Assembly (NCBI RefSeq): GCF_003614435.1
Contig: NZ_CP025546.1
Span: forward strand, 992,001-1,056,000
DNA: 64,000 nt
From: Mycobacterium paragordonae
GTDB lineage: Bacteria > Actinomycetota > Actinomycetes > Mycobacteriales > Mycobacteriaceae
Direction of reading: 5' to 3'
Position numbers and translations under genes: made by a program. The stretch's first letter is position 1. The number at the start of each line of letters is the position of its first letter. The notes under the pieces are model-generated. The model was not told the DNA's origin, did not search any database, and was given only the letters and a program-made list of their open reading frames with translations. Below, in pieces: positions 17,923 through 49,488 of this stretch.

Positions 17923-17947
17923 GTTTGGGTCACTGTTGCGCGGGTAA
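17923..17947 (+). promoter_or_regulatory. SigF-type promoter for manganese catalase
   Basis: GTTT at 17923-17926, 15 bases, then GGGTAA at 17942-17947. The mycobacterial SigF consensus is GTTT-N15-17-GGGTAT. It lies about 57 bases upstream of the catalase ATG, just after the permease stop. Confidence 0.75.
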
Positions 17948-18003
17948 CCGGCCAGATCGGGTCGAGACACATACGCAACAGTCGTGACAGTCGTGGGAGA
18001 AAT

Positions 18004-18897
18004 ATGTTCATTCACAATAAGGACCTGCAGTTCGAGGTGCGTGTCAGCCAGCCGGACCCCCGGTTCGCCTCGCTGTTGATGGAGCAGTTCGGTGGGGCCA
18101 ACGGCGAACTGACCGCCGCGCTCCAGTACTTCATTCAGGCCTTCGTGCTGCGGGAGAAGAATCCCAAAATGTACGACCTATTCATGGATATCGCCACGGA
18201 GGAACTGAGCCATCTGGAGATGGTCGGGTCGATGATCACCATGCTGCTGGACGGGCTGAACGATGATCTCAAGCTGGCCAATGACCGCTGCGACTGGATG
18301 CCGTTGGTGGCCAGTCGAGATGGTCGTCAGCAGGCCATCCACCAGGTCGCCGTCAATCCGATGTTCCTGGTGCTCAGCGGCGGTGGGCCGGATGCGAAAG
18401 ATTCCGCGGGCAACAACTGGACCGGGGCGTTCATCGATGCCAACGGCGACCCGACGGTGGACCTCCGCAATAATCTCGCCGCCGAGTCACGAGCGAAAGT
18501 CGTCTACGAGTACTTGAAGCAGTTCACCGACGACCCGGGCGTACAGGAAACCCTGACATTCCTCATGACTCGCGAAGTCGCCCACTATCAGCAGTTCACC
18601 GCCGCTCTCAATGAGCTGCCGGTGAACTTCCCGCCCGGCACTCTGGCAGGCGACGAACGGTTCCAGAACGTGGCCTTCAATATGTCGAACGGCAAAGGCT
18701 CGGTGCGCGGGCCGTGGAACCAGGGACAGGGTCCGTGGCCAGAGGGCACCGAATGGCAGTACGTGGAGGAGCCGACCACTGAATGGCTCGGCAGCACCCT
18801 GCGGCAGAACACCGGCGCCGCCACCAATCCTGAAGGCTCGCCGGCTGTTCCGAGTGACAAGCCGTTCACGCACGAACAGCGGACGCCCACCACTTAG
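18004..18897 (+). CDS. Manganese (non-haem) catalase
   Basis: A 297-residue ferritin-like dimanganese catalase that disproportionates hydrogen peroxide without haem. The ligand set is complete: Glu35 (GANGELT), Glu67 and His70 in TEELSH, Glu161 in AAESRA, and His194 in REVAHYQQF. This mirrors the Glu/Glu-x-x-His/Glu/His set of known manganese catalases. The C-terminal 80 residues are an extended Gly/Pro-rich tail typical of the family. The start has GGGAGAA just upstream and a SigF-type promoter further up. It converges on the hemerythrin-like gene across a shared terminator. Manganese catalases and hemerythrins are known members of SigF regulons in fast-growing mycobacteria, which agrees with the arrangement here. 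Confidence 0.92.
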   Translation: MFIHNKDLQFEVRVSQPDPRFASLLMEQFGGANGELTAALQYFIQAFVLREKNPKMYDLFMDIATEELSHLEMVGSMITMLLDGLNDDLKLANDRCDWMPLVASRDGRQQAIHQVAVNPMFLVLSGGGPDAKDSAGNNWTGAFIDANGDPTVDLRNNLAAESRAKVVYEYLKQFTDDPGVQETLTFLMTREVAHYQQFTAALNELPVNFPPGTLAGDERFQNVAFNMSNGKGSVRGPWNQGQGPWPEGTEWQYVEEPTTEWLGSTLRQNTGAATNPEGSPAVPSDKPFTHEQRTPTT

Positions 18898-18948
18898 GTC
18901 GGCCGTCTCAAGTCATCTCGGGTCGTCTCGGGGTGTCTCCGAAGCCGG

Positions 18949-18982
18949 AAAAGCCTGGCGCCATCGAGGGCGCCAGGCTTTT
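18949..18982. terminator. Bidirectional intrinsic terminator between catalase and hemerythrin genes
   Basis: A perfect 14-bp inverted repeat (18949-18962 with 18969-18982) around a 6-base loop; the stem starts AAAA and ends TTTT, so it serves both converging genes. Confidence 0.88.
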
Positions 18983-18994
18983 CTATCTTGCCGC

Positions 18995-19579
18995 TCAGTG
19001 CATCTGGGGATCGGGCGGGTTGTCGGCCGCCCGGCCGGTGACCGCGTCACGGACGTGGTCAACCACGGCAGCGCCCAAGCCCATCGTCTTCTGGGTCAAC
19101 GAGTCGGACGGCGTCTTCGGATGGGGCCGGGTCACCGCAACCTTTTTCGCGGTCTCCAGCTTTCCGCCGAGCTGTTCGAGTTCTTGCTGATCGACCGCCG
19201 CGGAAAAGCGCGGCCACACGACGTCCTGCTCGAACATGATGTGCTCGCGGCCGGCTTTGACGAACTCCTTGAGCGCCTCGTGATAGTCCGGGTCGCCCGG
19301 TGCACTGTCCTGGAGGCGTTGCAGCAACTTCTTGCCGGACCCTTCCTGTGCGATCGCTTGATCGGCCAGCTCGTCACCGCCTTCGACGGCGCGCCGGACC
19401 GCCGGCCAGAAGAACTGCTCTTCGACCGCTTCGTGCTGTGACTCGGAGATGATCAGGTTGTTCACCATCGTCTCGAGGCCGCTCAGTTGCGCGCCGTCGG
19501 ATTCGGGCGCCCCGTCCAGCACTTCCAGCATGCCCAGCACGCTCTTGTGGTCCTGGCGAAGAAATGTCAATGCATCCAT
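18995..19579 (-). CDS. Hemerythrin HHE-domain protein
   Basis: A 194-residue protein. Residues about 1-145 form a hemerythrin-like four-helix bundle with the expected His and Glu ligands spread over RQDHKS, SQHEAVEEQFFW and EHIMFEQDVVW; the last ~45 residues are a separate polar tail. These proteins bind a di-iron centre; in mycobacteria several are SigF-dependent and linked to peroxide or nitric-oxide stress. ATG 19579 is preferred, with an AAAGG element upstream; a TTG 24 bases earlier is possible. A SigF-type promoter lies 35 bases upstream, and the terminator is shared with the catalase gene. Confidence 0.85.
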   Translation of the reverse strand: MDALTFLRQDHKSVLGMLEVLDGAPESDGAQLSGLETMVNNLIISESQHEAVEEQFFWPAVRRAVEGGDELADQAIAQEGSGKKLLQRLQDSAPGDPDYHEALKEFVKAGREHIMFEQDVVWPRFSAAVDQQELEQLGGKLETAKKVAVTRPHPKTPSDSLTQKTMGLGAAVVDHVRDAVTGRAADNPPDPQMH

Positions 19580-19613
19580 GTGATGGCCTTTCGTCTGTGG
19601 CAATCAGCTGCGA

Positions 19614-19638
19614 GTACCCGCGTCGGCTCAGGCGAAAC
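19614..19638 (-). promoter_or_regulatory. SigF-type promoter for hemerythrin gene
   Basis: Read leftward: GTTT (19638-19635), 15 bases, GGGTAC (19619-19614). One base differs from the GGGTAT consensus. The start codon is 34 bases downstream. Confidence 0.68.
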
Positions 19639-19697
19639 GACGATTCGGCGGAAAGCTGTGCGGCGCAGCAGGATTCGCGGTCTGCGGCCGGAGGGTC

Positions 19698-19736
19698 AAA
19701 CGCCCCCGTCAGCGGAGGCCGCTGACAGGGGCGTTT
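19698..19736 (-). terminator. Stem-loop terminator after the WGxxGxxG gene
   Basis: Two stacked perfect arms (19698-19706 with 19728-19736, and 19708-19715 with 19719-19726) are broken by one C-A mismatch and closed by a 3-base loop. It lies ten bases past the stop of the small secreted protein gene. The outer edge is AAA/TTT. Confidence 0.7.
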
Positions 19737-19746
19737 GAGACCTGCG

Positions 19747-20022
19747 CTACGCGGTCGGCGGCCGGCGGGTGGCGGCCGGCGCAACGGTGGCGTCGTTGGC
19801 GTTGCGACGCTTCAGGCCTGCGAGCCCGGCCAGACCCAGGAGACCGGCGAGTCCCCACAGCCCAGTGTTGTCACTCTCGTGGTTGCTGTTGTTGTCGGTG
19901 TCGGCGAGCGTGGTGGTCGTCGAGGACGGAACCGGAGCCTGGTCGACGGCGGCGTTTGCGACGCCTGCCCCACCGAAGAGCAGTGCAGTGGCGGCGCAGC
20001 CGGCAGCGATGGTGTTACGCAT
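19747..20022 (-). CDS. Small secreted WGxxGxxG-motif protein
   Basis: A 91-residue exported protein. The signal peptide (residues 1-24, cut near Ala-Asn-Ala) precedes a short Thr/Asp/Asn-rich linker, then a hydrophobic WGLAGLLGLAGLAGL helix closed by KRR, and a Pro/Ala tail. This is the WGxxGxxG pattern seen in surface proteins of actinobacteria and cyanobacteria; it looks like a C-terminal membrane-retention or sorting segment. The ribosome-binding site AGGAG is 7 bases before the ATG. A SigF-type promoter lies 105 bases upstream and a stem-loop terminator follows. Function unknown. Confidence 0.75.
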   Translation of the reverse strand: MRNTIAAGCAATALLFGGAGVANAAVDQAPVPSSTTTTLADTDNNSNHESDNTGLWGLAGLLGLAGLAGLKRRNANDATVAPAATRRPPTA

Positions 20023-20127
20023 AGTGTTACTCCTTTCGGCCGCGAACGACCGGAAGCGGATTCGAACCAGTTTGATCTAGTTCTTTCGGATGACGACGCG
20101 GAGTGACTCCGGCGCCGCGGTGCATCT

Positions 20128-20152
20128 GTACCCGGGCATTCGGCGGCAAAAC
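20128..20152 (-). promoter_or_regulatory. SigF-type promoter for the WGxxGxxG gene
   Basis: Read leftward: GTTT (20152-20149), 15 bases, GGGTAC (20133-20128), followed by a leader of about 100 bases to ATG 20022. It is back-to-back with the oxidoreductase promoter at 20247. Confidence 0.6.
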
Positions 20153-20246
20153 CTTTTGCGACTCGAATTCGACCGACTGCGAAAAGCAATGCCGCACTGT
20201 GAAATAACCGACCACCGGTCATGCTCTCTAGGAGGCTTCGGTGGCC

Positions 20247-20271
20247 GTTTCGTTCCAGGGTGTCTGGGTAT
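20247..20271 (+). promoter_or_regulatory. SigF-type promoter for FAD/Rieske oxidoreductase
   Basis: GTTT (20247-20250), 15 bases, GGGTAT (20266-20271): exact match to the mycobacterial SigF consensus. Transcription should begin near 20278, only a few bases before ATG 20282, giving a leaderless or nearly leaderless mRNA. Confidence 0.78.
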
Positions 20272-20281
20272 GTCGTATGCC

Positions 20282-21817
20282 ATGGTGTCACTGTGGTTGG
20301 ACGACCGCGGCACAACGCCGTGGGCCGGCAGAACCTCCGGGAGCGTCGACGGGTCTGCCGATGTGGTGGTGGTCGGGGCGGGAATCACCGGCTTGATCAC
20401 CGCGGTGCTGCTCGCGCGCGCGGGCAAGGACGTACTAGTTCTGGAGGCCCGAACGGTGGGCGCCGGAGCCAGCGGGAACACGACCGCGAAACTGAGCCTG
20501 TTGCAGAGCACCCACCTGAGCAAAATCCTTGCGCGACACGGCAGAAGCACGGCCCGGGCGTACGTCGAGGGCAACCGCGAGGGGATGGAGTGGGTGCTGC
20601 ACCACTGCGACACGCACGGCATCGACGTACAGCGCGAAGACGCCTACACCTACGCGCAATCGGCCAGGGGGGTGCCGTCGGCGCGGGCGGAATGGTTGGC
20701 GTGCAGCGCCGTCGGACTGCCCGTGACGTGGGATAACCGCGCCGACGTGCCGTTCTCGTTCCATGGCGGGGTGCGGCTGCCCGATCAGGCGCAGTTCGAT
20801 CCGGTCCCCTTCCTGGACAGCCTGGTGGTCGAATTACTCGATCGCGGCGGCCGGCTCGTCGAGGGCGCGCGGGTCCGCAAGGTGGCCGGCGACGGAGACG
20901 GCCTGCGGTTGCACGTCAACACCGGTGGGGGAGAACAGGCGGCGGACGGCACCGAGGCCGACTCCGAGGTCTCCGCACGGCAACTGGTGCTGGCGACGGG
21001 CATCCCGATTCTGGACCGCGGCGGCTATTTCGCCAGGCTGAAACCGAGTCGCTCCTACTGCATGGCTTACCGGGTGCCGGGTCCGATCACCCGGGCGATG
21101 ATGATCTCCACCGACTCGCCGACCCGATCCGTGCGCTATGTCCCCACCGACGACGGGGAACTTCTGATCGTCGGCGGCGCGGGACATCCGGTGGGTCGCA
21201 AGAAAAGTCCCTCGAAAGCGCTCGCCGAGCTTGACGAGTGGACACGCGAGCACTTTCCCGGTGCGGAGCGGACACACTACTGGTCGGCGCAGGACTACAC
21301 ACCGATCGATCAGTTGCCGTATGTGGGACCGATCCTGCCGAACAACGAAAAGATCTTCGTGGCAACGGGTTTCAACAAGTGGGGAATGACCAACGGCCCG
21401 GCCGCGGCGCTGGCGCTGTCCAGTCGCATCCTGGGCGGCCGGATGGATTGGGCCGGGGCTTTCGCCAGCTGGAGTCCGCACGAATTGTCCGGCGTGACAA
21501 CCGCTCTGACTGCCAACATGGAGGTCGGCTTCAACCTGGCACGCGGTTGGGTCACGCCCGCAACGCGAATTGGGCGGCGTGACCCGAAGCCCGACGAGGG
21601 CGGAGTGGTAAGTGGGCCGCCGTGGGACCTGCAGGCGCGGTGCGTGGTCGACGGAGTCGAGCACGTGGTGTCGCCGGTGTGCACCCACCTGGGCGGCATC
21701 GTCAACTGGAACGACGCGGACAAGGCATGGGAGTGCCCGCTGCATGCGTCGCGGTTCGCGCCGGACGGGACGCTGCTGGAGGGGCCGGCCACCACGGACC
21801 TGACCCGGTCTAAGTGA
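20282..21817 (+). CDS. FAD-dependent oxidoreductase with C-terminal Rieske domain
   Basis: A 511-residue fusion. The first ~420 residues are a D-amino-acid-oxidase/DadA-type FAD domain, with VVVGAGITG at residues 29-37 and the acidic end of the second strand in LVLEA. The last ~70 are a Rieske [2Fe-2S] domain with Cys467-x-His469 and Cys485-x-x-His488. This is the YhfW-like architecture; substrates are generally unknown. The frame is open upstream to 20090, but the consensus SigF promoter at 20247-20271 lies inside that extension, so I start at ATG 20282. ATG 20270 would overlap the -10 element. Its stop overlaps by 8 bases the end of the convergent glycosyltransferase operon. It is probably a stress-induced redox enzyme. 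Confidence 0.85.
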   Translation: MVSLWLDDRGTTPWAGRTSGSVDGSADVVVVGAGITGLITAVLLARAGKDVLVLEARTVGAGASGNTTAKLSLLQSTHLSKILARHGRSTARAYVEGNREGMEWVLHHCDTHGIDVQREDAYTYAQSARGVPSARAEWLACSAVGLPVTWDNRADVPFSFHGGVRLPDQAQFDPVPFLDSLVVELLDRGGRLVEGARVRKVAGDGDGLRLHVNTGGGEQAADGTEADSEVSARQLVLATGIPILDRGGYFARLKPSRSYCMAYRVPGPITRAMMISTDSPTRSVRYVPTDDGELLIVGGAGHPVGRKKSPSKALAELDEWTREHFPGAERTHYWSAQDYTPIDQLPYVGPILPNNEKIFVATGFNKWGMTNGPAAALALSSRILGGRMDWAGAFASWSPHELSGVTTALTANMEVGFNLARGWVTPATRIGRRDPKPDEGGVVSGPPWDLQARCVVDGVEHVVSPVCTHLGGIVNWNDADKAWECPLHASRFAPDGTLLEGPATTDLTRSK

Positions 21818-22628
21818 TCTCCGTCCGGACGGGACGCCCGCCGGCCTCGCGGTAGATGAGTCCCGCGGTCTCGAAAGACGTCAGCCAACCCTCCATCGGC
21901 CACCAACCCCAGCGCCGGTGAAAGATCCCGGCGTTGCGCACGATGTCCTCCAGATGTCCGACCGGCGGGTCGGCCACCGGGTGGTACTGGTGAAACGCGT
22001 CGGCGCCACCGACCCAGCGCATCGGAACCTCAACTGCCGCAGCGCATTGCGCGAAGTCGGTGTCCTCGCCGCCGTAACCGCGGTATTCCTCGCAGAATCC
22101 GCCGATCCGGCGCCACGTTTCGGCGCGGACGGCGAAAGACAACGACCAGAACAGGGCATAGTCCGCGGTACCGATGACCGTCCCGGGCGCCGGCGCGGGC
22201 CGGGCGGGATGCGGATTGATCGGCAATTCGGACAGAACGTAGCCGTCCGGACCGGGCGGCGGGAGGTAGGTGACCGGACCGCACAACAGCGCATCGCGGT
22301 GTGCAGCCTGACCCGCCACAGTGTGGTAGCGCTCGATCAGGTCGGTGCCCGGGATGCAGTCGACGTCTAGAAAGACCAACAGCTCGGCCGACTTTCGCAG
22401 GGCGGCAGCCGCCCCCAGGTTTCGTCCCTGCGCGACCGGTAGCGGCTGTGACGCCGGATGGTGCAGCACCGTCGATTGGTGACCAGCTACCGCGTCGGCC
22501 ACGGCCGGGTCACCGAGCGCGACCACGATGTGCACGTCGGGCATCTGGGTGCCTTCGGTCAGGCCCCGGAGTTGGCGGACCAAGTGGGTGTGTCGCCCGT
22601 GCACGGTGGTGATCACTGCTGTCTTCAC
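21810..22628 (-). CDS. Family-2 type glycosyltransferase
   Basis: Last gene of the four-gene glycosyltransferase run. The 272-residue GT-A protein begins TAVITTVHGR, has the metal-binding FLDVD (Asp88-Val-Asp90) and a GGEDTDF motif at 186-192 like the catalytic-base motif of galactosyl/N-acetylgalactosaminyl transferases. No membrane helix, so it acts at the cytoplasmic face. GTG 22628 has GGAGG 6 bases upstream and overlaps the previous stop as GTGA; the frame extends further up but inside the preceding gene. Donor and acceptor are unknown. Confidence 0.8.
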   Translation of the reverse strand: MKTAVITTVHGRHTHLVRQLRGLTEGTQMPDVHIVVALGDPAVADAVAGHQSTVLHHPASQPLPVAQGRNLGAAAALRKSAELLVFLDVDCIPGTDLIERYHTVAGQAAHRDALLCGPVTYLPPPGPDGYVLSELPINPHPARPAPAPGTVIGTADYALFWSLSFAVRAETWRRIGGFCEEYRGYGGEDTDFAQCAAAVEVPMRWVGGADAFHQYHPVADPPVGHLEDIVRNAGIFHRRWGWWPMEGWLTSFETAGLIYREAGGRPVRTEIT

Positions 22629-23635
22629 GATGCGCCTCCCCGGCACAGCCGCGCGGTCGCTTCGATCGCTTCGGCGGCGCGCCGGGCAGCCCCGTCCACG
22701 GCCCATCGTTGCCAACGCTGTGGATCGAAAGCGTCGGCGTGGGCCAACAAAGCCGGCCAGGCGCGCTGATCCGGCCAGTCCTGCGCGACGATGGCCAGCC
22801 GATGCTGCCGGAGCATCAACCCGGTCGCTGTCTGCTCACCGAACGGGCGAGGCTGCGGGATCACGATCGCGGGCCGTTGCGCCGCAGCCACATCGGCGAT
22901 GCAGCCTTGTCCCGCGTGCGTGACGACGACGTCCGCACCGCAGATCTGAGCCCAGGGATCTGCCTGCCACGAACCGGCACCCCCCAGTGTCATCCAGTTG
23001 GGCCCGGAATCGTCTGTGGCACAGAGGCTGATCTCAGGCGTGATCTCGGCGCCGAACGCACCGTCGGAGCCGCTCAGCACGAGTACCTGGTTGGCGCCGC
23101 CGGTGTGACGGTCGGTACGGTGCCTGCCCTCGAAGCGGCTGATGCCCCCGACGTAGCTGGTCTTGTGATCGTATCGCCGGAGCCACGTGGGTACGCACAA
23201 CGCCTTCGGCCATGCCGCCACAATATGGTCGGCGGTGCGGTGCACCAGGAGATGTGGCGCGTCGATCCGCCTTCCGGGCAACGCGACAACTATCACCGGT
23301 ATGCCGAGCAGCCGAACGAACAGAGCGACTTCCACTGAGACATCGACGACGAAAGCTTCCGGTTCGGCATCGCGGACCCAGTCCGCGATCCGGCTCATCC
23401 GGGCGCTCAGGCCCGGGTCGTGGTGCGGCGCCCAATGCAGCGCGCCGTGCGCGGTCGGCTCGGCAGCGCGTGGTCCCTGATCGTCACGCGGCAGTGTGAC
23501 CACTGCCGAAAATGGATGGGGGTCAGGGATGTCCAGTGAAGTCAACGCCGTTACGGGCCGGTGCATCCGTGCGCAGACGGTGGCGGCGCGGGCCAGGTGC
23601 CCGAAGCCGTGGTGGTGAATGTAGTAACCGATCAT
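22625..23635 (-). CDS. MurG-like (GT28-type) glycosyltransferase
   Basis: A 336-residue GT-B-fold protein. The N-terminus GYYIHHHGFGHLARA is the classic His-Gly-x-Gly-His loop of MurG-like enzymes, and residues about 239-270 (THAGQGCIADV then RPAIVIPQPRPFGEQ) form the nucleotide-sugar site. Such enzymes use UDP-sugars and often lipid acceptors. ATG 23635 is well supported by the conserved beginning. However, the upstream gene's frame stays open 113 bases into this gene, an unusually long overlap. The stop overlaps the GTG of the downstream family-2 transferase by 4 bases. Confidence 0.78.
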   Translation of the reverse strand: MIGYYIHHHGFGHLARAATVCARMHRPVTALTSLDIPDPHPFSAVVTLPRDDQGPRAAEPTAHGALHWAPHHDPGLSARMSRIADWVRDAEPEAFVVDVSVEVALFVRLLGIPVIVVALPGRRIDAPHLLVHRTADHIVAAWPKALCVPTWLRRYDHKTSYVGGISRFEGRHRTDRHTGGANQVLVLSGSDGAFGAEITPEISLCATDDSGPNWMTLGGAGSWQADPWAQICGADVVVTHAGQGCIADVAAAQRPAIVIPQPRPFGEQTATGLMLRQHRLAIVAQDWPDQRAWPALLAHADAFDPQRWQRWAVDGAARRAAEAIEATARLCRGGAS

Positions 23636-24722
23636 CTGTCCTGTCCGTCACATCGTCGGCCATTTGCCGGTACAAGCCGGAATAGGCGGTGAGCATCGCC
23701 GCCGCCGAGCAGCGCCGTATCGCGTTTTCGCGCACCGCGTCTCGCGGCAGCCGGGTCGCGGCGGGGATAGCGTCGGCCATGCCGGCGACATCGCCGGCAG
23801 GCACCAGCCGTCCTGCGGCGTCGTCGACGAGCTCAGGGATGCCGCCTCGGGCGAAGGCGACCACAGGTGTGCCGCACGACATCGCCTCGGCGACAACCAG
23901 ACCGTAAGGCTCGTCCCATGTCGGGGTGACCAGCGCAACACCGGACGCCCCCACCAGTCGGGCCAGCTGGGTCTGATCGAGATGTCCCGCATAGCGGATG
24001 GCGTCGTCCAACTCCGGTGACACGTGCTCGGCGAAGTAACGCTCATCGGAGATGGGCCCGGCGAGAATCAGTGCTCTGCCGGCTCGCCGGGCCGCCGCGA
24101 TCGCCAGGTGTGGCGCCTTTTCCGGAGTCATCCGGCCGAACCACACCAGGGCATTTCCGCCCGGACCCGGCGGCCACGCCGTGGTGTCCACCCCGTTGCG
24201 CACCACCGTGATTCCGCCCGCCACCTGCCGCCACGCGGCAGCGGTGTGCTCCGAGACGGCGCTGAATCGGGTGCCTGCGCCGCCGGAGGCATCGACGGCC
24301 GACTCCAGCCACGGCGTCGGCGGCGTGTGCACCGTCGTGAGCATCGGCGTCGACAGCATCGGAGCCATCGCCACTGGAAGGTAATGCAGGCTGTGATTGT
24401 GGATGACGTCGAACTGATCAGCTCCCGGCCCGCCAAGCCAGAGCATCAGCGACAGATACGCGTGGTGGTCAGCCATGAAATCCGCTGCGGGCATGGACAC
24501 GTCGCGCCGGGCCGATTCCGACAGGTTGAGGTACCGGACCACCAGCGGCTGACATCGCGGTCCGGGTGTGGAGCCCGCGGCGGCGAAGAGCGAGACTCGA
24601 TGTCCCTGGGAGGCTAGTGCGCGGGCGAGGTGCCACACGTGCGCTTCCAAGCCGCCCGCGAAGGGTTCGCGGATGGGATACCGGTTCGAGGCGATGAGTG
24701 CCACCCGCAGTTCACCGGTCAT
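23523..24722 (-). CDS. Family-4 glycosyltransferase
   Basis: A 399-residue GT-B retaining glycosyltransferase. It has FAGGLEAHVWHL at residues 21-32, the donor-domain GRMTPEK at 196-202, and the E-x7-E signature EPYGLVVAE (Glu271 and Glu279). The fold appears complete by about residue 358. The last ~40 residues are Arg/Pro-rich and read in another frame over the start of the next gene, so the natural stop may have been lost or shifted. ATG 24722 overlaps the previous stop as ATGA. Probably adds a hexose to a growing glycan or glycolipid in the cytoplasm; donor unknown. Confidence 0.82.
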   Translation of the reverse strand: MTGELRVALIASNRYPIREPFAGGLEAHVWHLARALASQGHRVSLFAAAGSTPGPRCQPLVVRYLNLSESARRDVSMPAADFMADHHAYLSLMLWLGGPGADQFDVIHNHSLHYLPVAMAPMLSTPMLTTVHTPPTPWLESAVDASGGAGTRFSAVSEHTAAAWRQVAGGITVVRNGVDTTAWPPGPGGNALVWFGRMTPEKAPHLAIAAARRAGRALILAGPISDERYFAEHVSPELDDAIRYAGHLDQTQLARLVGASGVALVTPTWDEPYGLVVAEAMSCGTPVVAFARGGIPELVDDAAGRLVPAGDVAGMADAIPAATRLPRDAVRENAIRRCSAAAMLTAYSGLYRQMADDVTDRTDDRLLHSPPRLRAPGPRRHRLRTDAPARNGVDFTGHP

Positions 24723-25780
24723 GCCAGCGCCTTGTGGTAGATCTGCCGATGCGCCGCGGCTATCGCCCGTCGCTCATCGAGTCGGTGTTCCCATCGCGCC
24801 CGCGGAGCGGGATCCCCTGCCGCCCAACGCTCGTAGGCCCGACGCAGCGCGGTGGCCAGCGACTCCTCGTCGAATCCGTCTTCGTCGAAGCCGAAGCTCT
24901 CGCAGGGACGTTGCTGCCCGTAGTAGCCGCAGCCCGGCGCCACCACCGCGGTGCCCAGGTCGAAACAGGCTTCGAGCCAACCGGAGTGGGTGCCGAAGCG
25001 ATAGGGCAGCACCGACACGGTGAGCGACGCCAGGTAGTCCCAGAGTTGGTCATCTGAGAAGTACGGATGGGCCCTGACGTCGACGTGCTGGTAGCGCTCG
25101 TATTCCAGCAACGCCACGGCAGTCTCGGGTGCGAACCAGTGGTTTGCGGGATCGAAGATCTCGTCGTGGAAGTCAATCTGCAGCACCGCGCCGGGCAGCG
25201 AGGCCGAGATCTCGGTGAGCGCCTCTACTACGGGCAACGGATCCATGTTGGCGCGCAGGCTCTTCGCGTGCACACCGACCACGAAGTGTTCGTCCTCGCG
25301 CGGGCGTTCGATGAGGTCCCTGCCGAGGACATGGGGATGTGGCAACACGTGAGTGTGTCGTTGCCAGCGCCGCCAGATCGCCTGCGCGGCACCGGGGGTC
25401 AAGGTGATCAGCTCAACGGCCGCGGCGACCAGGACCTCCTGTTGGCCTGCGTGGTCCTCCGGCTCGGGGTGATGTGGATTGCGCAGGTCGTGCACGGTGT
25501 AGACGAGCGGCTTGTCATGCATCTTCAGTTCCTGGACCACGTCGCTCAACGCCTCGGGCCCGATCGCGTCGAAACCGAAATGAAGGTGGAAAACCTCGAA
25601 TTCGGTGTGGTGGGCGGAGACCCAACCCGGCTCCAGCATCAGCGGCGGCCACCAGCCCCCCGGCACGATGCGGCCGTCGGCCGGGATCGGATCATCCAGG
25701 CGCACAACGCAATCGCCGTCCGGATCGGCCAGATGGCGGACGTAGACGTGGGATGCCGGTACCGAGGCGACACGCAGCAA
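24719..25780 (-). CDS. GT4-like glycosyltransferase, first gene of the cassette
   Basis: A 353-residue protein resembling GT-B glycosyltransferases: a divergent N-terminal half with FHLHFGFD and VYTVHDLRN, and a C-terminal half with VGVHAKSLRANMD and THSGWLEACFDLGTAVV, matching the donor-site helix region. The E-x7-E pair is not obvious, so it is a remote member. The start is TTG 25780, supported by GGAGG 7 bases upstream; no in-frame ATG fits. The leader is about 115 bases long from a consensus SigF-type promoter. It is followed by three further glycosyltransferases with overlapping stops and starts, so the four are translated as one unit. Confidence 0.72.
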   Translation of the reverse strand: MLRVASVPASHVYVRHLADPDGDCVVRLDDPIPADGRIVPGGWWPPLMLEPGWVSAHHTEFEVFHLHFGFDAIGPEALSDVVQELKMHDKPLVYTVHDLRNPHHPEPEDHAGQQEVLVAAAVELITLTPGAAQAIWRRWQRHTHVLPHPHVLGRDLIERPREDEHFVVGVHAKSLRANMDPLPVVEALTEISASLPGAVLQIDFHDEIFDPANHWFAPETAVALLEYERYQHVDVRAHPYFSDDQLWDYLASLTVSVLPYRFGTHSGWLEACFDLGTAVVAPGCGYYGQQRPCESFGFDEDGFDEESLATALRRAYERWAAGDPAPRARWEHRLDERRAIAAAHRQIYHKALA

Positions 25781-25896
25781 TGACGTTCCTCCATGGTTGT
25801 CGAGCTATGCACCGGTTCGACGGACCATGCTTCGAGGAAGGCGTCGACGAGGCGCGGAAACCCGTTCCTGTTGGTTGAAGAACGCGCGGACTGCGG

Positions 25897-25921
25897 ATAC
25901 CCGCGAGCCTCCGGGTCAAAC
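25897..25921 (-). promoter_or_regulatory. SigF-type promoter for the glycosyltransferase operon
   Basis: Read leftward: GTTT (25921-25918), 15 bases, GGGTAT (25902-25897): exact consensus. It is 15 bases from the divergent promoter-like site at 25937. Confidence 0.78.
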
Positions 25922-25936
25922 GGACGACGTCGGTGG

Positions 25937-25961
25937 GTTTATCGCTGCCGGGACCGGCTAC
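25937..25961 (+). promoter_or_regulatory. Weaker SigF-type promoter for the short-chain dehydrogenase
   Basis: GTTT (25937-25940), 15 bases, GGCTAC (25956-25961). Two bases differ from GGGTAT, so alone it would be weak evidence; its spacing and location 39 bases before the GTG start make it plausible. Confidence 0.45.
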
Positions 25962-26000: not shown

Positions 26001-26840
26001 GTGGGATTTGCCGAACAACAACAACCGGTGCCGGGCGTTCAAGGGCAGATGGATCCCGTACCCGACTGCGGCGAGAACAGCTACTCCGGTTCCGGGAAGC
26101 TGACCGGCAAGAGAGCGATCATCACCGGAGGAGACAGCGGGATCGGTCGCGCCGTCGCGATCGCGTTCGCCCGCGAGGGCGCGGACGTGTTGCTGGCGTA
26201 TCTGAGCGAGGACGAAGACGCGCGGGACACCGCCCGCTACGTCGAGGACGCGGGACGTAAATGCGTGCTGGTGTCCGGCGATCTGTCCGACCCGCAGCAT
26301 TGTCGCGCTGTCGTGGACCGGGCCGTCTCGGAGTTCGGTCGCATCGACGTGCTGGTGAACAACGCCGCCTATCAGATGACACACGAGACCCTCGAAGAGA
26401 TCTCCGACGAGGAGTGGGACCACACCTTCCGGCTCAACGTGGGGGCTTACTTCTACCTGGCCAAAGCCGCTCTGCCGCATATGGGTTCCGGCTCCTCGAT
26501 CATCGGGAGTTCGTCAGTCAACTCCGACTCGCCGAATCCGACTCTGGCACCCTATGCGGCAACTAAGGCGGCCATCGCCAACCTGTCCGCCAGCCTCGCC
26601 CAGATGTTGGGGCCCAAAGGTATCCGGGTCAACAGTGTGGCGCCCGGCCCGATCTGGACGCCGCTGATTCCCGCGACCATGCCCGCCGAGAAGGTGAAGT
26701 CGTTCGGCGACAACGTACCGCTGGGCCGAGCCGGGCAGCCGGCCGAACTGGCTCCGGTGTACGTGCTGCTGGCCTCCGACGACGCCAGTTACATCTCCGG
26801 CGCGCGGGTCGCAGTCACCGGGGGGCGGCCGATTCTGTAG
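26001..26840 (+). CDS. Stress-type short-chain dehydrogenase (GSP39/YdaD-like)
   Basis: A 279-residue NAD(P)-dependent classical short-chain dehydrogenase. The leader of about 35 residues (SYSGSGKLTGKRAIITGG) is typical of the YdaD/YghA/general-stress-protein-39 subgroup. The cofactor motif TGGDSGIG is at 42-49, the NNAAYQ motif and catalytic Tyr-x3-Lys (YAATK) follow. In Bacillus subtilis the related protein is under the general stress sigma factor SigB, the counterpart of SigF. GTG 26001 is preceded by GAGAGGA; the frame runs open upstream but through the promoter region. It is divergent from the glycosyltransferase operon and ends 1 base before the convergent PanE-like gene. Confidence 0.84.
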   Translation: MGFAEQQQPVPGVQGQMDPVPDCGENSYSGSGKLTGKRAIITGGDSGIGRAVAIAFAREGADVLLAYLSEDEDARDTARYVEDAGRKCVLVSGDLSDPQHCRAVVDRAVSEFGRIDVLVNNAAYQMTHETLEEISDEEWDHTFRLNVGAYFYLAKAALPHMGSGSSIIGSSSVNSDSPNPTLAPYAATKAAIANLSASLAQMLGPKGIRVNSVAPGPIWTPLIPATMPAEKVKSFGDNVPLGRAGQPAELAPVYVLLASDDASYISGARVAVTGGRPIL

Positions 26841-43049: not shown

Positions 43050-45272
43050 ATGGATGTCGTGTTGGGGGTGGCCGTCACCGGCCAGGTCGCACGCCTGGCT
43101 CTGGTTGAGGCGTCCGCTCGCGGTAACCAGACACTTGACCAGTCCACGGTCGAGCTGTCGGGGGACCCGGTCGCGGACCTGACCGAAACCGTGGTCGGCA
43201 CCAATCGTCTGCTGGCCGACGAAGGCCACCGGCTGGTGGCCACCCGCCTGGTCTGGTCGGACCCTTACCGTGCCGACCAACTGCGCCAGGCGCTGGACTA
43301 TGCCCGCGTTCCCAACGTGCAGGTGGTTTCGGAGTCGAAAGCGGCCGGCGCGCTGCTGGGGCCCGGGCGGGGCGCTGCGGCGGTGCTGCTGATCGGCAAC
43401 GAAACGGCGAGCCTGGCGGTGTCGGGGGATCCGGACGCGCCGCCGACGATCCTGGCGTCGACCCCGGTGGAGAACGATCCGGGGGCAACGTTCGACACCT
43501 TGATGTCCCAGATTCCCGGTCAGGCCGGCAGCCCCAACGACGTCCTCGTGGTAGGCAGCTCGGCCGAGCAGACCGCGATGTTCGCCGACCACCTGCAGTC
43601 CGCCTCGACCATGGGCGTGCAGATCCCGCCGGACGCCAACTTCGCGCTGGCGCAGGGCGCTGCGGCCGACGCGACGATGGCGGCCCCGGTGATCCCTGCC
43701 GACGGGGCGGCGGGCGTTGCCGGTTCGTCGCTCGATGCTCCGATGGGGCACCAGGGATTCGCCGGCGGAGGGCCCGGTGGCGCCCCCACGTCGTCCCCGG
43801 ATGCGTCGGGGTTGTCGGCCGGTGGGCCGGGTGGCACACCCACGTCGTCCCCGGATGCGTCGGGTCTGTCGGCCGGTGGTCCCGGTGGTGGTCCCACGTC
43901 GTCCCCGGACGCCTCGGGGTGGGCCGCGACGATGGCGCAACCCTCTTTATCCGGCAGTGGACCGGGCGGCGGTCCCTCGTCGTCCCCGGACGCGCCGGGT
44001 CTGTCGGCCGGCGGTCCCGGTGGTGGCCCTACCTCGTCTCCGGACGCATCGGGGCTGGGTGCGACGATGGCGCACCCGGGCCTGGCCAATCAGGCACATG
44101 GTCACCAGGGGTTTGCCGGCGACGCGACGATGGCCGCCCCGACCGCTTCCCCGGACGCCACCATGGCGGCGCAGATACCGGGCGACGCGACCGCCCATGT
44201 CTCGTCGCCGGACGCGGGACAACCCGGCGGCGGGGACGAACAGCTGGCGTATTCGCAGGCCAGTGAATACGACATTCTTCCGGTCGACACCGACGGCCTC
44301 AGTGATTACGGCGATGAATACGACGAATACGACGAATTCGATGACGGATTCGACGAGGACGACCCCGAAGCGGGCGGCGGAAAGCCGCACAATCTCAAGC
44401 GGTTGCTGATCAGCAACGCGGTGATGGGGTTTGCTGTCCTCGGGTTCGCGTCGCTGGCCGTCGCGGTGGCGGTCACCGTCCGCCCGACCGCGTCCACGCT
44501 GCCCGTCGAAGGCCACCAGAACGCGCAGCCGGGCAAGTTCATGCCGCTGTTGCCGACCGAGCAGCAAGCACCCGTTCCGCCGCCGCCGCCCGACCTGCCC
44601 ACCGCGGGCTTCCAGGGCGGCAGCATCCCCGCCGTGCAGAACATTCCCCGTCAGGTGCCGGCCGCTCCCGTCCCCGCTCCCGAGCCGGTCGCCCCGGTTC
44701 CGGTTCCGGTGCCGGCGCCCGTGCCGATCTTCATTCCGCCGTACCCGGGCTGGCAGCCGGGCATGCCGACCTGGCCGATCGTGACGCCGCCGACCACCCC
44801 GCCGACGACGGAGTACACGACCCCGCCGACCACACCACCCACCACACCGCCGACGACACCACCCACCACGCCGCCGACCACACCGCCGACGACGCCGCCC
44901 ACCACTCCGCCGACGACACCACCGACCACGCCGCCGACGACTGCTGCGACGACGCCGCCGACGACCGCGGCGGTGACCACTCCGCCTACGACGTACGCGC
45001 CGCAGCCGACTACCGCGGCTCCCGCGCCCACCACCTACGCGCCGCAACCCACCACTGCGGCCCCGCAGCCGACGCAGGCACCGCAGCCGACGTATGCGCC
45101 GCAGCCGACGCAGGCGCCACAGCCGACGCAGGCGCCGCAGCCCAGGACTCAGGCACCGCAAACCCAGGCGCCGCAGACCGTCGCCCCGAAGCCGCCGACC
45201 CAGCAGGCGCCCAAGCCGCCGTCCGGCGGAAGCGGCGGCAGCGGGGGCAGCGGCGGCAGCGGTCCCCGGTGA
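43050..45272 (+). CDS. Large membrane protein with Gly/Ser/Pro and PPTT repeats (Rv0538 family)
   Basis: A 740-residue protein in clear blocks. Residues 1-205 are a conserved globular domain that begins VVLGVAVTGQVARLALVE and looks actin/hexokinase-like (mycobacterial DUF7159). 238-345 hold five Gly/Pro/Ser/Asp-rich repeats; 414-448 are strongly acidic. One membrane helix sits at about 453-478. 510-730 are an extracytoplasmic Pro/Thr/Gln-rich stalk with PPTT repeats from 579. The end is GGSG repeats. The Thr-rich stalk suits O-mannosylation. ATG 43050 has GGGGAG 7 bases upstream. Rv0538 in M. tuberculosis is shorter (548), so the repeats are expanded here. Function unknown. Confidence 0.8.
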   Translation: MDVVLGVAVTGQVARLALVEASARGNQTLDQSTVELSGDPVADLTETVVGTNRLLADEGHRLVATRLVWSDPYRADQLRQALDYARVPNVQVVSESKAAGALLGPGRGAAAVLLIGNETASLAVSGDPDAPPTILASTPVENDPGATFDTLMSQIPGQAGSPNDVLVVGSSAEQTAMFADHLQSASTMGVQIPPDANFALAQGAAADATMAAPVIPADGAAGVAGSSLDAPMGHQGFAGGGPGGAPTSSPDASGLSAGGPGGTPTSSPDASGLSAGGPGGGPTSSPDASGWAATMAQPSLSGSGPGGGPSSSPDAPGLSAGGPGGGPTSSPDASGLGATMAHPGLANQAHGHQGFAGDATMAAPTASPDATMAAQIPGDATAHVSSPDAGQPGGGDEQLAYSQASEYDILPVDTDGLSDYGDEYDEYDEFDDGFDEDDPEAGGGKPHNLKRLLISNAVMGFAVLGFASLAVAVAVTVRPTASTLPVEGHQNAQPGKFMPLLPTEQQAPVPPPPPDLPTAGFQGGSIPAVQNIPRQVPAAPVPAPEPVAPVPVPVPAPVPIFIPPYPGWQPGMPTWPIVTPPTTPPTTEYTTPPTTPPTTPPTTPPTTPPTTPPTTPPTTPPTTPPTTPPTTAATTPPTTAAVTTPPTTYAPQPTTAAPAPTTYAPQPTTAAPQPTQAPQPTYAPQPTQAPQPTQAPQPRTQAPQTQAPQTVAPKPPTQQAPKPPSGGSGGSGGSGGSGPR
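43764..44085 (+). repeat. Tandem coding repeats, about five units of 18-26 residues
   Basis: Within the large membrane protein, units of the form GGPGGxPTSSPDASGLSA recur five times with small changes (Ala, Thr or Gly at x), the third and fifth extended by an ATMA-type segment. The DNA of successive units is nearly identical, indicating recent duplication. Confidence 0.8.
44783..45000 (+). repeat. PPTT-encoding tandem repeat
   Basis: DNA built of repeated ACGCCGCCGACC-like 12-base units coding Pro-Pro-Thr-Thr about a dozen times in the extracytoplasmic stalk, passing into Thr/Ala and Pro/Gln repeats. Copy number is likely to vary between strains. Confidence 0.82.
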
Positions 45273-47981: not shown

Positions 47982-49073
47982 CTATTGACCGAACTGCTGT
48001 GCCAACGCCCGGCGGTCGACCTTGCCGATGCCGCGGCGCGGCAGCTCGGAGACCACATGCAACTCCCGGGGCGCGGCGGTGGCGTCCAGGGTGCGCGCGA
48101 TATGGGACCGCAGCTCCTGCAGGGTCGGCGCCGCGGATCCGGCATGCAGCACCACCGCGGCAACCACCCGCTGGCCCAGCCGTACGTCGGAAACCCCGAA
48201 AACCGCACAGTCCGCCACGGCGGGATGGGTGAACAGCGCCGCCTCGACGGGACCCGGGAACACCGTCAGGCCGCCGGTGCTGATCGCGTCGTCGACGCGG
48301 CCCAGCACCGTCAGGACGCCCGAATCATCAACGGCGCCAAGATCATCGGTGAGAAACCAGCCATCTTCGAACGGATCCGGATCGACCGGGTTGCGATAGC
48401 CCTTGGCCAGGGTTGCGCCACCGAGCGCGATGCGGCCGCCGTCGCGGATCCGCAGTTGAACTCCGTCCAGCGGAACGCCGTCGTAGACGCAGCCCCCCGC
48501 GGTCTCGCTCATTCCGTAGGTGCGTACCACCGTGACACCGGCGGCGGCCGCGGCCTCGAGCACCGGTCGTGGCGCGGGCCCGCCGCCCAGCAGGACGGCG
48601 TCCAGCTCGGCGAGTGCGGCCGTGGCAGCGGGATCGGTCAGCGCCTTGGCCAGCTGGGCGGCGACCAGTGACGTGTACCGCCGCCCGGAGCCCAAACGGT
48701 CTATCGCGCTGGGCAATTCACCGATATCGAAGCCGGCCGAGACATCCAGCTCGACCGGTTCCGACCCCGCCAGCAGACTGCGGATCAGCACCTGCAGCCC
48801 GGCGATGTGGTAGGGCGGTATGGCCAGCAGCCAGCGCCCCGGTCCGCCGAGATGCTGGTGGGTGGCCGTCGCGCTCGCCCGCAGCGCGGCGGCGGTCAGC
48901 AACGCGCCCTTGGGAGCGCCGGTGGTTCCCGACGTCGTCACCACCAGGGCGACGTCGTCGTCGATCTCTTCACCGACGCGCAGGCCGCGCACCGTGGCGT
49001 CGATGTCGTGTGCCGGCGCGGCCACCAGCGCTGAGTCCGCGCCGTCGAGCACCCGGCCCAGGGCGGGTAGCAA
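47982..49073 (-). CDS. menE: O-succinylbenzoate-CoA ligase
   Basis: An acyl-adenylate-forming enzyme that activates o-succinylbenzoate to its CoA ester for menaquinone. The P-loop TTSGTTGAPKG, the YGMSETAGG motif, the GRVDD hinge and C-terminal GIGKVDR with the catalytic Lys are all present. A TTG start at 49073 gives 363 residues, close to the M. tuberculosis enzyme. Family-like sequence (AVLRALGVAPGS) continues 17 codons upstream with no ATG, GTG or TTG; an ATA at 49124 there overlaps the stop of the upstream gene (ATAG). The true start is therefore uncertain. Confidence 0.88.
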   Translation of the reverse strand: MLPALGRVLDGADSALVAAPAHDIDATVRGLRVGEEIDDDVALVVTTSGTTGAPKGALLTAAALRASATATHQHLGGPGRWLLAIPPYHIAGLQVLIRSLLAGSEPVELDVSAGFDIGELPSAIDRLGSGRRYTSLVAAQLAKALTDPAATAALAELDAVLLGGGPAPRPVLEAAAAAGVTVVRTYGMSETAGGCVYDGVPLDGVQLRIRDGGRIALGGATLAKGYRNPVDPDPFEDGWFLTDDLGAVDDSGVLTVLGRVDDAISTGGLTVFPGPVEAALFTHPAVADCAVFGVSDVRLGQRVVAAVVLHAGSAAPTLQELRSHIARTLDATAAPRELHVVSELPRRGIGKVDRRALAQQFGQ

Positions 49074-49120
49074 CTGCCGGGTCGCCGAGCCCGGTGCGAC
49101 ACCCAGTGCCCGCAGGACGG

Positions 49121-49429
49121 CTATGCGTGGTCTCCGTTGTCGCGCGCGTCATCGAGGGGCCAGCCCTGGGCGGCGAGTCGCTTGCGGACGCGCTCGACGT
49201 CATCGGGCGACGGCAGTTCGTCGGTGAGTTGCGTTATCGCGACGCCGATGTCGATCTTGTCGATGTTGAGTTCGCCGCGCTGCATCAATTCGTTGGCCAC
49301 CGTGACGATCTCGTCGTTGGTCAGGCGGCGGGCCAGCAACGCCAGCACGGCAAAGGAATCCGTCGGCGGAATGCCGTCCGGATATCCCGCGCGCAGCCAC
49401 GAGACGATCGAACTGAGAAAACGGTTCAT
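49121..49429 (-). CDS. DUF3349 small helical protein (Rv0543c)
   Basis: A 102-residue soluble protein with an all-helical pattern and the acidic LTDELPSPDDVERVRKRL segment of the DUF3349 family; a structure exists for the M. tuberculosis homologue but no function. Its stop overlaps or abuts menE, so the two are probably cotranscribed. ATG start. Confidence 0.78.
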   Translation of the reverse strand: MNRFLSSIVSWLRAGYPDGIPPTDSFAVLALLARRLTNDEIVTVANELMQRGELNIDKIDIGVAITQLTDELPSPDDVERVRKRLAAQGWPLDDARDNGDHA

Positions 49430-49488
49430 TGTGCGATCAACTTACCCCCCGGGCCAGCGCCGAAACGCGGTTGACGAGGAACTCCGCG

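Follow-up and report, generated by a model that had tools for sequence, protein, structure and literature searches.

The closest described counterpart of the locus analyzed here is the SigF regulon of Mycobacterium smegmatis. In a delta-sigF mutant of this species, expression of Mn catalase MSMEG_6213, hemerythrin MSMEG_6212, hypothetical protein MSMEG_6211 and FAD dependent oxidoreductase MSMEG_0670 is decreased, and SigF sites are listed for these genes at distances of 40, 51, 9 and 9 nucleotides (nt), respectively (PMC4694148). The same four genes are differentially expressed in spray-dried cells, and exact GTTT-N15-GGGTAT sites are given for MSMEG_6212 and MSMEG_6213 (PMC5445863). A different hemerythrin, MSMEG_2415, is dealt with in PMC4295536. 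The SigF consensus has been described as GTTT-N14-19-GGGTA (PMC4694148) and as GGWWT-N16-17-GGGTAY (PMC7693655). Here, we report a cluster of six such sites, distributed over a catalase, a hemerythrin and four further transcription units, in a 64-kb window (C1:992001-1056000) of the 7.22 Mb genome of Mycobacterium paragordonae. We consider it very likely that RNA polymerase with SigF, the mycobacterial general-stress sigma factor, uses all six sites as promoters, and we infer SigF dependence of the adjoining genes from their sequence and conservation. The initial annotation of this DNA had named Mn catalases and hemerythrins as SigF targets, in agreement with the published delta-sigF data for M. 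smegmatis (PMC4694148).

The cluster comprises five exact GTTT-N15-GGGTA sites and one GGCTA variant within 8 kb. Positions and strands of all six, as initially annotated, were confirmed, including the GTTT-N15-GGCTAC sequence at 25937(+) and the GGGTAT ends of the two exact-consensus sites, 20247 and 25921; by position, 6 of 6 are located upstream of a gene or operon start in the sense direction. Five thus agree exactly with the consensus with an N15 spacer, and the sixth has the GGCTA form of the -10 element that is listed for MSMEG_5342/5343 (PMC4694148). The first predicted promoter (17923..17947, +, GTTT-N15-GGGTAA) precedes the Mn catalase gene (18004..18897, +, family match PF05067), whose transcription would be expected to start near 17954. 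Predicted promoters with GTTT-N15-GGGTAC are present on the minus strand upstream of a hemerythrin HHE protein (site 19614..19638; gene 18995..19579, -, PF01814) and a WGxxGxxG family small protein (site 20128..20152; gene 19747..20022, -, NF041742). The fourth (20247..20271, +, GTTT-N15-GGGTAT) precedes a gene with family matches to FAD-dependent oxidoreductase (DAO) and a C-terminal Rieske domain, designated FAD/Rieske below (20282..21817, +); its start at 20282 was chosen by us, and the earliest in-frame start is further upstream. The remaining two serve a four-gene glycosyltransferase (GT) run (site 25897..25921, -, GTTT-N15-GGGTAT; genes 21810..25780, -) and a short-chain dehydrogenase (SDR; variant site 25937..25961, +, GTTT-N15-GGCTAC; gene 26001..26840, +). 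In the direction of transcription, the GT run consists of a first gene with no Pfam match (24719-25780), followed by genes with matches to GT4 (23523-24722), GT28-C-like (22625-23635) and Glyco_transf_7C-like (21810 to ~22625) families, all on the minus strand. The -35 boxes of the GT and SDR promoters, which are arranged back to back, are separated by 15 bp (by 3 bp in M. asiaticum), so that two polymerases may compete for this pair.

Such a density is not expected by chance. Exact matches in the whole window numbered 6, compared to a mean of 0.14 and a maximum of 1 in 100 shuffled sequences. The genome contained 31 exact N15 sites versus 13 matches to the reversed pattern, implying that approximately 40% of the exact sites could be background; when 31 sites were placed at random 20,000 times, 5 of them never fell inside 8.1 kb. 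A scoring matrix was built from 59 published M. smegmatis sites, with 18 stretches (360 kb) as background. At a score of 13 or higher, it identified 7 positions in the island (6 sites, one of them in two registers) versus 0.56 expected per 8.1 kb; the remaining 55.9 kb of the window yielded 4 positions and the 360-kb background 25. A matrix scan, as had been proposed in the initial annotation, therefore revealed the predicted enrichment in the island, although the excess shrank at a threshold of 8 (20 versus 10.9 expected).

The assertion that no other such pair occurs in the window proved incorrect. A seventh site, also exact, was found at 49442..49466 (-) before a DUF3349 open reading frame (49121-49429, -), with 13 nt between the end of GGGTA and the start of the frame; a plus-strand open reading frame (48569-49474), longer than that of DUF3349, overlaps this site. 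Elsewhere in the genome (C1:6384867-6402890, L214), a further 5 exact sites are spread less densely over 18 kb, and this second cluster begins with a back-to-back pair.

We examined conservation of each unit among relatives. Conservation of the sites exceeded that of their surroundings, more weakly for SDR. For Mn catalase, the best 80 of 142 candidate loci were compared, and sites were sought up to 250 nt upstream. The protein in the window shares 97% identity with its counterpart in M. gordonae DSM 44160 (L031) and 91-93% with those in five M. asiaticum records. An exact N15 site was present in 78 of the 80 relatives, and the remaining 2 had a site with one mismatch and an N16 spacer, whereas the 80 coding controls all had at least two mismatches. 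The hemerythrin gene was detected in 77 of these loci, 76 of which were used (L035 was dropped because its upstream region was too short). Where hemerythrin was not directly downstream of the catalase on the same strand, 60 of 62 loci contained a separate exact site for it (57/59 convergent and 3/3 divergent); where it was located 18-96 nt downstream of the catalase on the same strand, the exact site was found in 0 of 14 (Fisher p 1.7e-13, with relatedness of the loci ignored). Absence of a separate site directly behind the catalase fits co-transcription from the catalase promoter. We also observed back-to-back SigF-type pairs, often beside hemerythrin, in 19 of the 80 loci (L031-L110; 20 pairs). 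A constant spacing for such promoters was considered and rejected, as 5-52 bp separated the -35 boxes in these pairs.

Relatives (at least 50%) of FAD/Rieske, WGxxGxxG, SDR and panE were found near Mn catalase in only 4 of 80 loci, M. gordonae and three M. asiaticum (L032-L034); two further M. asiaticum loci were cut by contig ends. The WGxxGxxG site was exact in 4/4 linked orthologues, and so was its coding control, because the control stretch extends past this short gene into the hemerythrin promoter. Near Mn catalase, the GT-operon site was likewise exact in 4/4 orthologues, including one with an N14 spacer. Loci were also selected by the first GT gene, by SDR and by FAD/Rieske in a set of 61 genomes (own included). 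For the first GT gene, 19 of 20 loci were usable; the site was exact in 6 and had one mismatch in 5, two in 6 and three in 2. Of the closest six loci (own included), 5 were exact and 1 had one mismatch. One GT coding control also reached one mismatch. For SDR, 26 of 30 loci were usable (6 exact, 15 with one mismatch, 4 with two and 1 with three), and neither reversed-motif nor coding controls fell below two mismatches.

The FAD/Rieske gene retained a site ~10 nt from its ATG even in unlinked loci. Among 28 usable loci of 30 (own included), the site was exact in 17, with one mismatch in 7, two in 2 and three in 2; the 23 same-genus loci comprised 17 exact sites, 5 with one mismatch and 1 without a site. 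In an alignment of 24 upstream sequences (70 nt, anchored on the start codon, not selected by motif), the only columns conserved at 70% or more were -34 to -32 (TTT), -16 to -14 and -12 (GGG.A), and -1. In 21 of 23 same-genus loci, as in the window, 9-10 nt separate the -10 element from the start, which predicts a leader of a few nt and a near-leaderless mRNA; leaderless mRNAs are common among mycobacteria (PMC6448022). By eye, at least 12 of 30 exact sites in the genome (L001-L030) were 7-11 nt ahead of a likely start codon, and such short distances suggest that near-leaderless SigF transcripts may be produced from them. In 20 of 20 loci examined with ~1.5 kb flanks (L138-L157), FAD/Rieske was apart from catalase and hemerythrin; an SDR of 52-53% flanked it in 2 of these 20. 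Its neighbors varied among the unlinked loci examined and gave no support for identity with MSMEG_0670. In one genome (G022), a SigF gene (L148 3560-4390, -) was found within 0.6 kb downstream of FAD/Rieske on the opposite strand.

A single protein in the genome exceeded the cut-off in a SigBFG-family search, with three further matches below it, and the same protein passed the SigF model NF005514 (496.9 bits versus a cut-off of 372). Two exact N16 sites occur upstream of this sigF gene (C1:1500146 and 1501153), as expected for self-regulation, and the preceding open reading frame has weak similarity to RsbA/RsbW. Release of anti-sigma control, presumably in stationary phase or under oxidative or respiratory stress, would free SigF, which could then initiate transcription at all six sites on both strands, from the start points predicted here. 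One signal would thus turn on Mn catalase, hemerythrin, WGxxGxxG protein, FAD/Rieske oxidoreductase, the four-gene GT operon and SDR. These products could remove peroxide, act as a sensor or carrier of the O2/iron type, serve as an oxidoreductase and glycosylate some acceptor. The assignment of SigF-type promoters to all six units, as initially annotated, is well supported by conservation, by the one SigF over the cut-off and by what has been published on similarly described genes (catalase, hemerythrin) in delta-sigF M. smegmatis, with SDR as the weakest-supported of the six. General-stress island is a fair name for the cluster.

Several observations weigh against extending this assignment to every site. 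The one-mismatch pattern was not enriched in the genome (498 versus 567 in the control), and the excess with N14-17 spacers was modest (68 versus 46 genome-wide), so that evidence other than the pattern itself is required for the GGCTA site and other variants. By sequence alone, the site at 25937(+) is not significant; its assignment draws on where it is located and on its retention in M. asiaticum. Beyond the six closest GT loci, the site was exact in just 1 of 13, and for SDR in only 6 of the 26 usable loci; a site was lacking for SDR in M. gordonae DSM 44160 and for FAD/Rieske in a same-genus locus (L152). The site reported for MSMEG_0670 has GTTC instead of GTTT (PMC5445863), and the proposed equivalences of MSMEG_0670 with FAD/Rieske (as its orthologue) and of MSMEG_6211 with the WGxxGxxG gene are guesses that draw on gene descriptions and on how far the sites are from the genes. 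Moreover, locus counts are not independent, as the orthologues are interrelated and some probably represent one species fetched twice (G007 and L034 share the site sequence).

These points bear on an alternative, that some sites are due to chance or idle and that the true SigF targets are only catalase, hemerythrin and perhaps FAD/Rieske. SDR fits this best, as its site differs from the consensus by one mismatch, a type of match without excess in the genome, and is missing in L031. However, the GT-operon and WGxxGxxG sites were each kept in 4/4 linked orthologues, and the SDR sequence GTTT-N15-GGCTA was retained in 3/3 M. asiaticum loci. The exception in M. gordonae may also have a simple explanation: the GT operon is missing there, 17 nt separate the end of the FAD/Rieske match from the start of SDR, and SDR could therefore be read from the FAD/Rieske promoter. 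Overall, we find idle sites rather unlikely and favor SigF promoters at all six units.

A second alternative concerns origin. The cluster had been described as inserted between gabP and what was named a tartrate-dehydratase operon, and the whole gabP-panE interval might be a single recently inserted mobile element. Presence of the GT operon and SDR does vary among close relatives: the GT operon occurs in M. asiaticum L032-L034 and is absent in M. gordonae DSM 44160, and in G006, FAD/Rieske adjoins panE with neither GT nor SDR between them. Homologous GT operons are also carried by Rhodococcus plasmids. On the other hand, no empty gabP-panE site was found among the relatives examined; G010, G016 and G022 have the panE-enolase pair but are uninformative on this question, because the flanks examined show neither island genes nor gabP. 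The arrangement is also common to M. asiaticum, which argues that any insertion was not very recent, and loss of the GT operon is the simpler reading, given that M. asiaticum has the full set. We consider a single recent insertion unlikely, and the term inserted is not supported. As for gabP itself, the gene encodes an amino-acid permease, but its score is below the GABA-permease cut-off (550 versus 678 bits). The cluster is made of gene-plus-promoter units, several of which occur apart, together with their sites, in other mycobacteria.

Reading of the sites mainly by a sigma factor other than the chromosomal SigF, for instance a SigF paralogue on a plasmid or a different stress sigma that cross-reads them, is very improbable: SigB/SigF/SigG paralogues do occur on actinobacterial plasmids, including M. 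gordonae plasmid NZ_CP070974.1, but this genome has only the one SigBFG-family protein over the cut-off, with its three other matches below, and chromosomal sigF is itself preceded by sites of the same type. The sigma gene on NZ_CP070974.1 (L226 12025-12774, +) is near a SpoIIE-type phosphatase gene.

Plasmid sequences were analyzed for homologs of the region. Megablast detected only 3 partial matches, the best covering 9%, whereas the first GT protein matched 7 records, all from Rhodococcus, at 57-61%. All four GT genes were present in 5/5 plasmid regions read among these records, two of which (L221 and L223) are near copies. FAD/Rieske was found on at least 6 of the 7 GT-bearing records, at a distance from the GT gene of ~4.5-5 kb (four records), 12 kb (one) or 51 kb (one); the seventh record, NZ_CP089607.1, had a 58-residue match nearby. 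These counts come from the 30 best of 179 FAD/Rieske matches, and further matches are possible. Among the matches listed, a SigF-type sigma factor was encoded on at least 6 of the 7 records; in L221, L222 and L223, its gene was beside an ATP-binding, anti-sigma-like gene within the 25 kb read, and in NZ_CP089607.1, it was ~43 kb from the GT gene. The five 25-kb regions contained 15 exact sites (5, 2, 3, 1 and 4) versus 0 matches to the reversed pattern, and in the four annotated regions, 15 of 20 G[AT]TT sites were 11-74 nt upstream of an annotated sense gene. In L221, L222, L223 and L225, we also noted a site 11-26 nt before a run of xanthine dehydrogenase-type genes.

From these data, we tentatively raise the possibility, which we do not favor, that the GT operon and FAD/Rieske, in SigF-type promoter surroundings, constitute a portable general-stress module moving between actinobacterial chromosomes and megaplasmids. 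In Rhodococcus, it would travel with its own SigF-type sigma and anti-sigma, and in the M. gordonae-M. asiaticum group, it would have become part of a chromosomal cluster under the control of the host SigF. The evidence against this idea is that no site was found directly before the first GT gene in any of the 5 plasmid regions (L221 and L223 have a small gene between), that L224 had only 1 exact site, and that the plasmid FAD/Rieske gene also lacked a site directly before it.

Downstream of the island, the window contains genes for a PanE/ApbA-type reductase and then an enolase-superfamily protein, and a tRNA-Arg (cct) gene is located at 43416-43510 (+). In an Rfam scan of the window, no match reached the gathering threshold. 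Sequence searches of PDB returned nothing for the first GT protein (E <= 0.01) or the FAD/Rieske protein (E <= 1e-10). A literature search, with most subscription journals outside its reach, found no description of this cluster among the titles listed.

The cluster provides a compact, testable set of probable SigF targets for a slow-growing non-tuberculous mycobacterium, and the likely SigF regulon gains a four-gene GT operon and, less surely, an SDR. Hemerythrin offers a natural test of promoter function, as it has its own site only when it is not directly behind the catalase. In addition, gene-plus-promoter units suggest how the members of a stress regulon may become clustered and be transferred, possibly by way of Rhodococcus plasmids.

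Compared to known systems, the cluster is a dense example of SigF-type control. It shares with the M. smegmatis SigF regulon the promoter type and the listed Mn catalase, hemerythrin and FAD dependent oxidoreductase, but no four-glycosyltransferase operon is recognizable in the table of that study (PMC4694148). The M. smegmatis units also appear dispersed, given that MSMEG_0670 is numbered far from MSMEG_6211-6213. The MSMEG_1766-1804 region resembles the island in that numerous SigF-dependent genes follow one another there and separate sites are given for them; however, it contains sigF itself (MSMEG_1804), and the gene descriptions available for it mostly differ from those of the island (PMC4694148). 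Rhodococcus plasmid regions L221-L223 have a homologous four-gene GT run and, in all three, SigF-type sites before genes, and homologous FAD/Rieske is present in L221 and L223 (in two pieces) and, on the L222 record, 12 kb from the GT gene and outside the region read. In contrast to the island, these regions carry their own sigma and anti-sigma-like genes, have xanthine dehydrogenase-type and other genes instead, and, over the stretches read, lack a close Mn catalase, the match in L222 being 34%.

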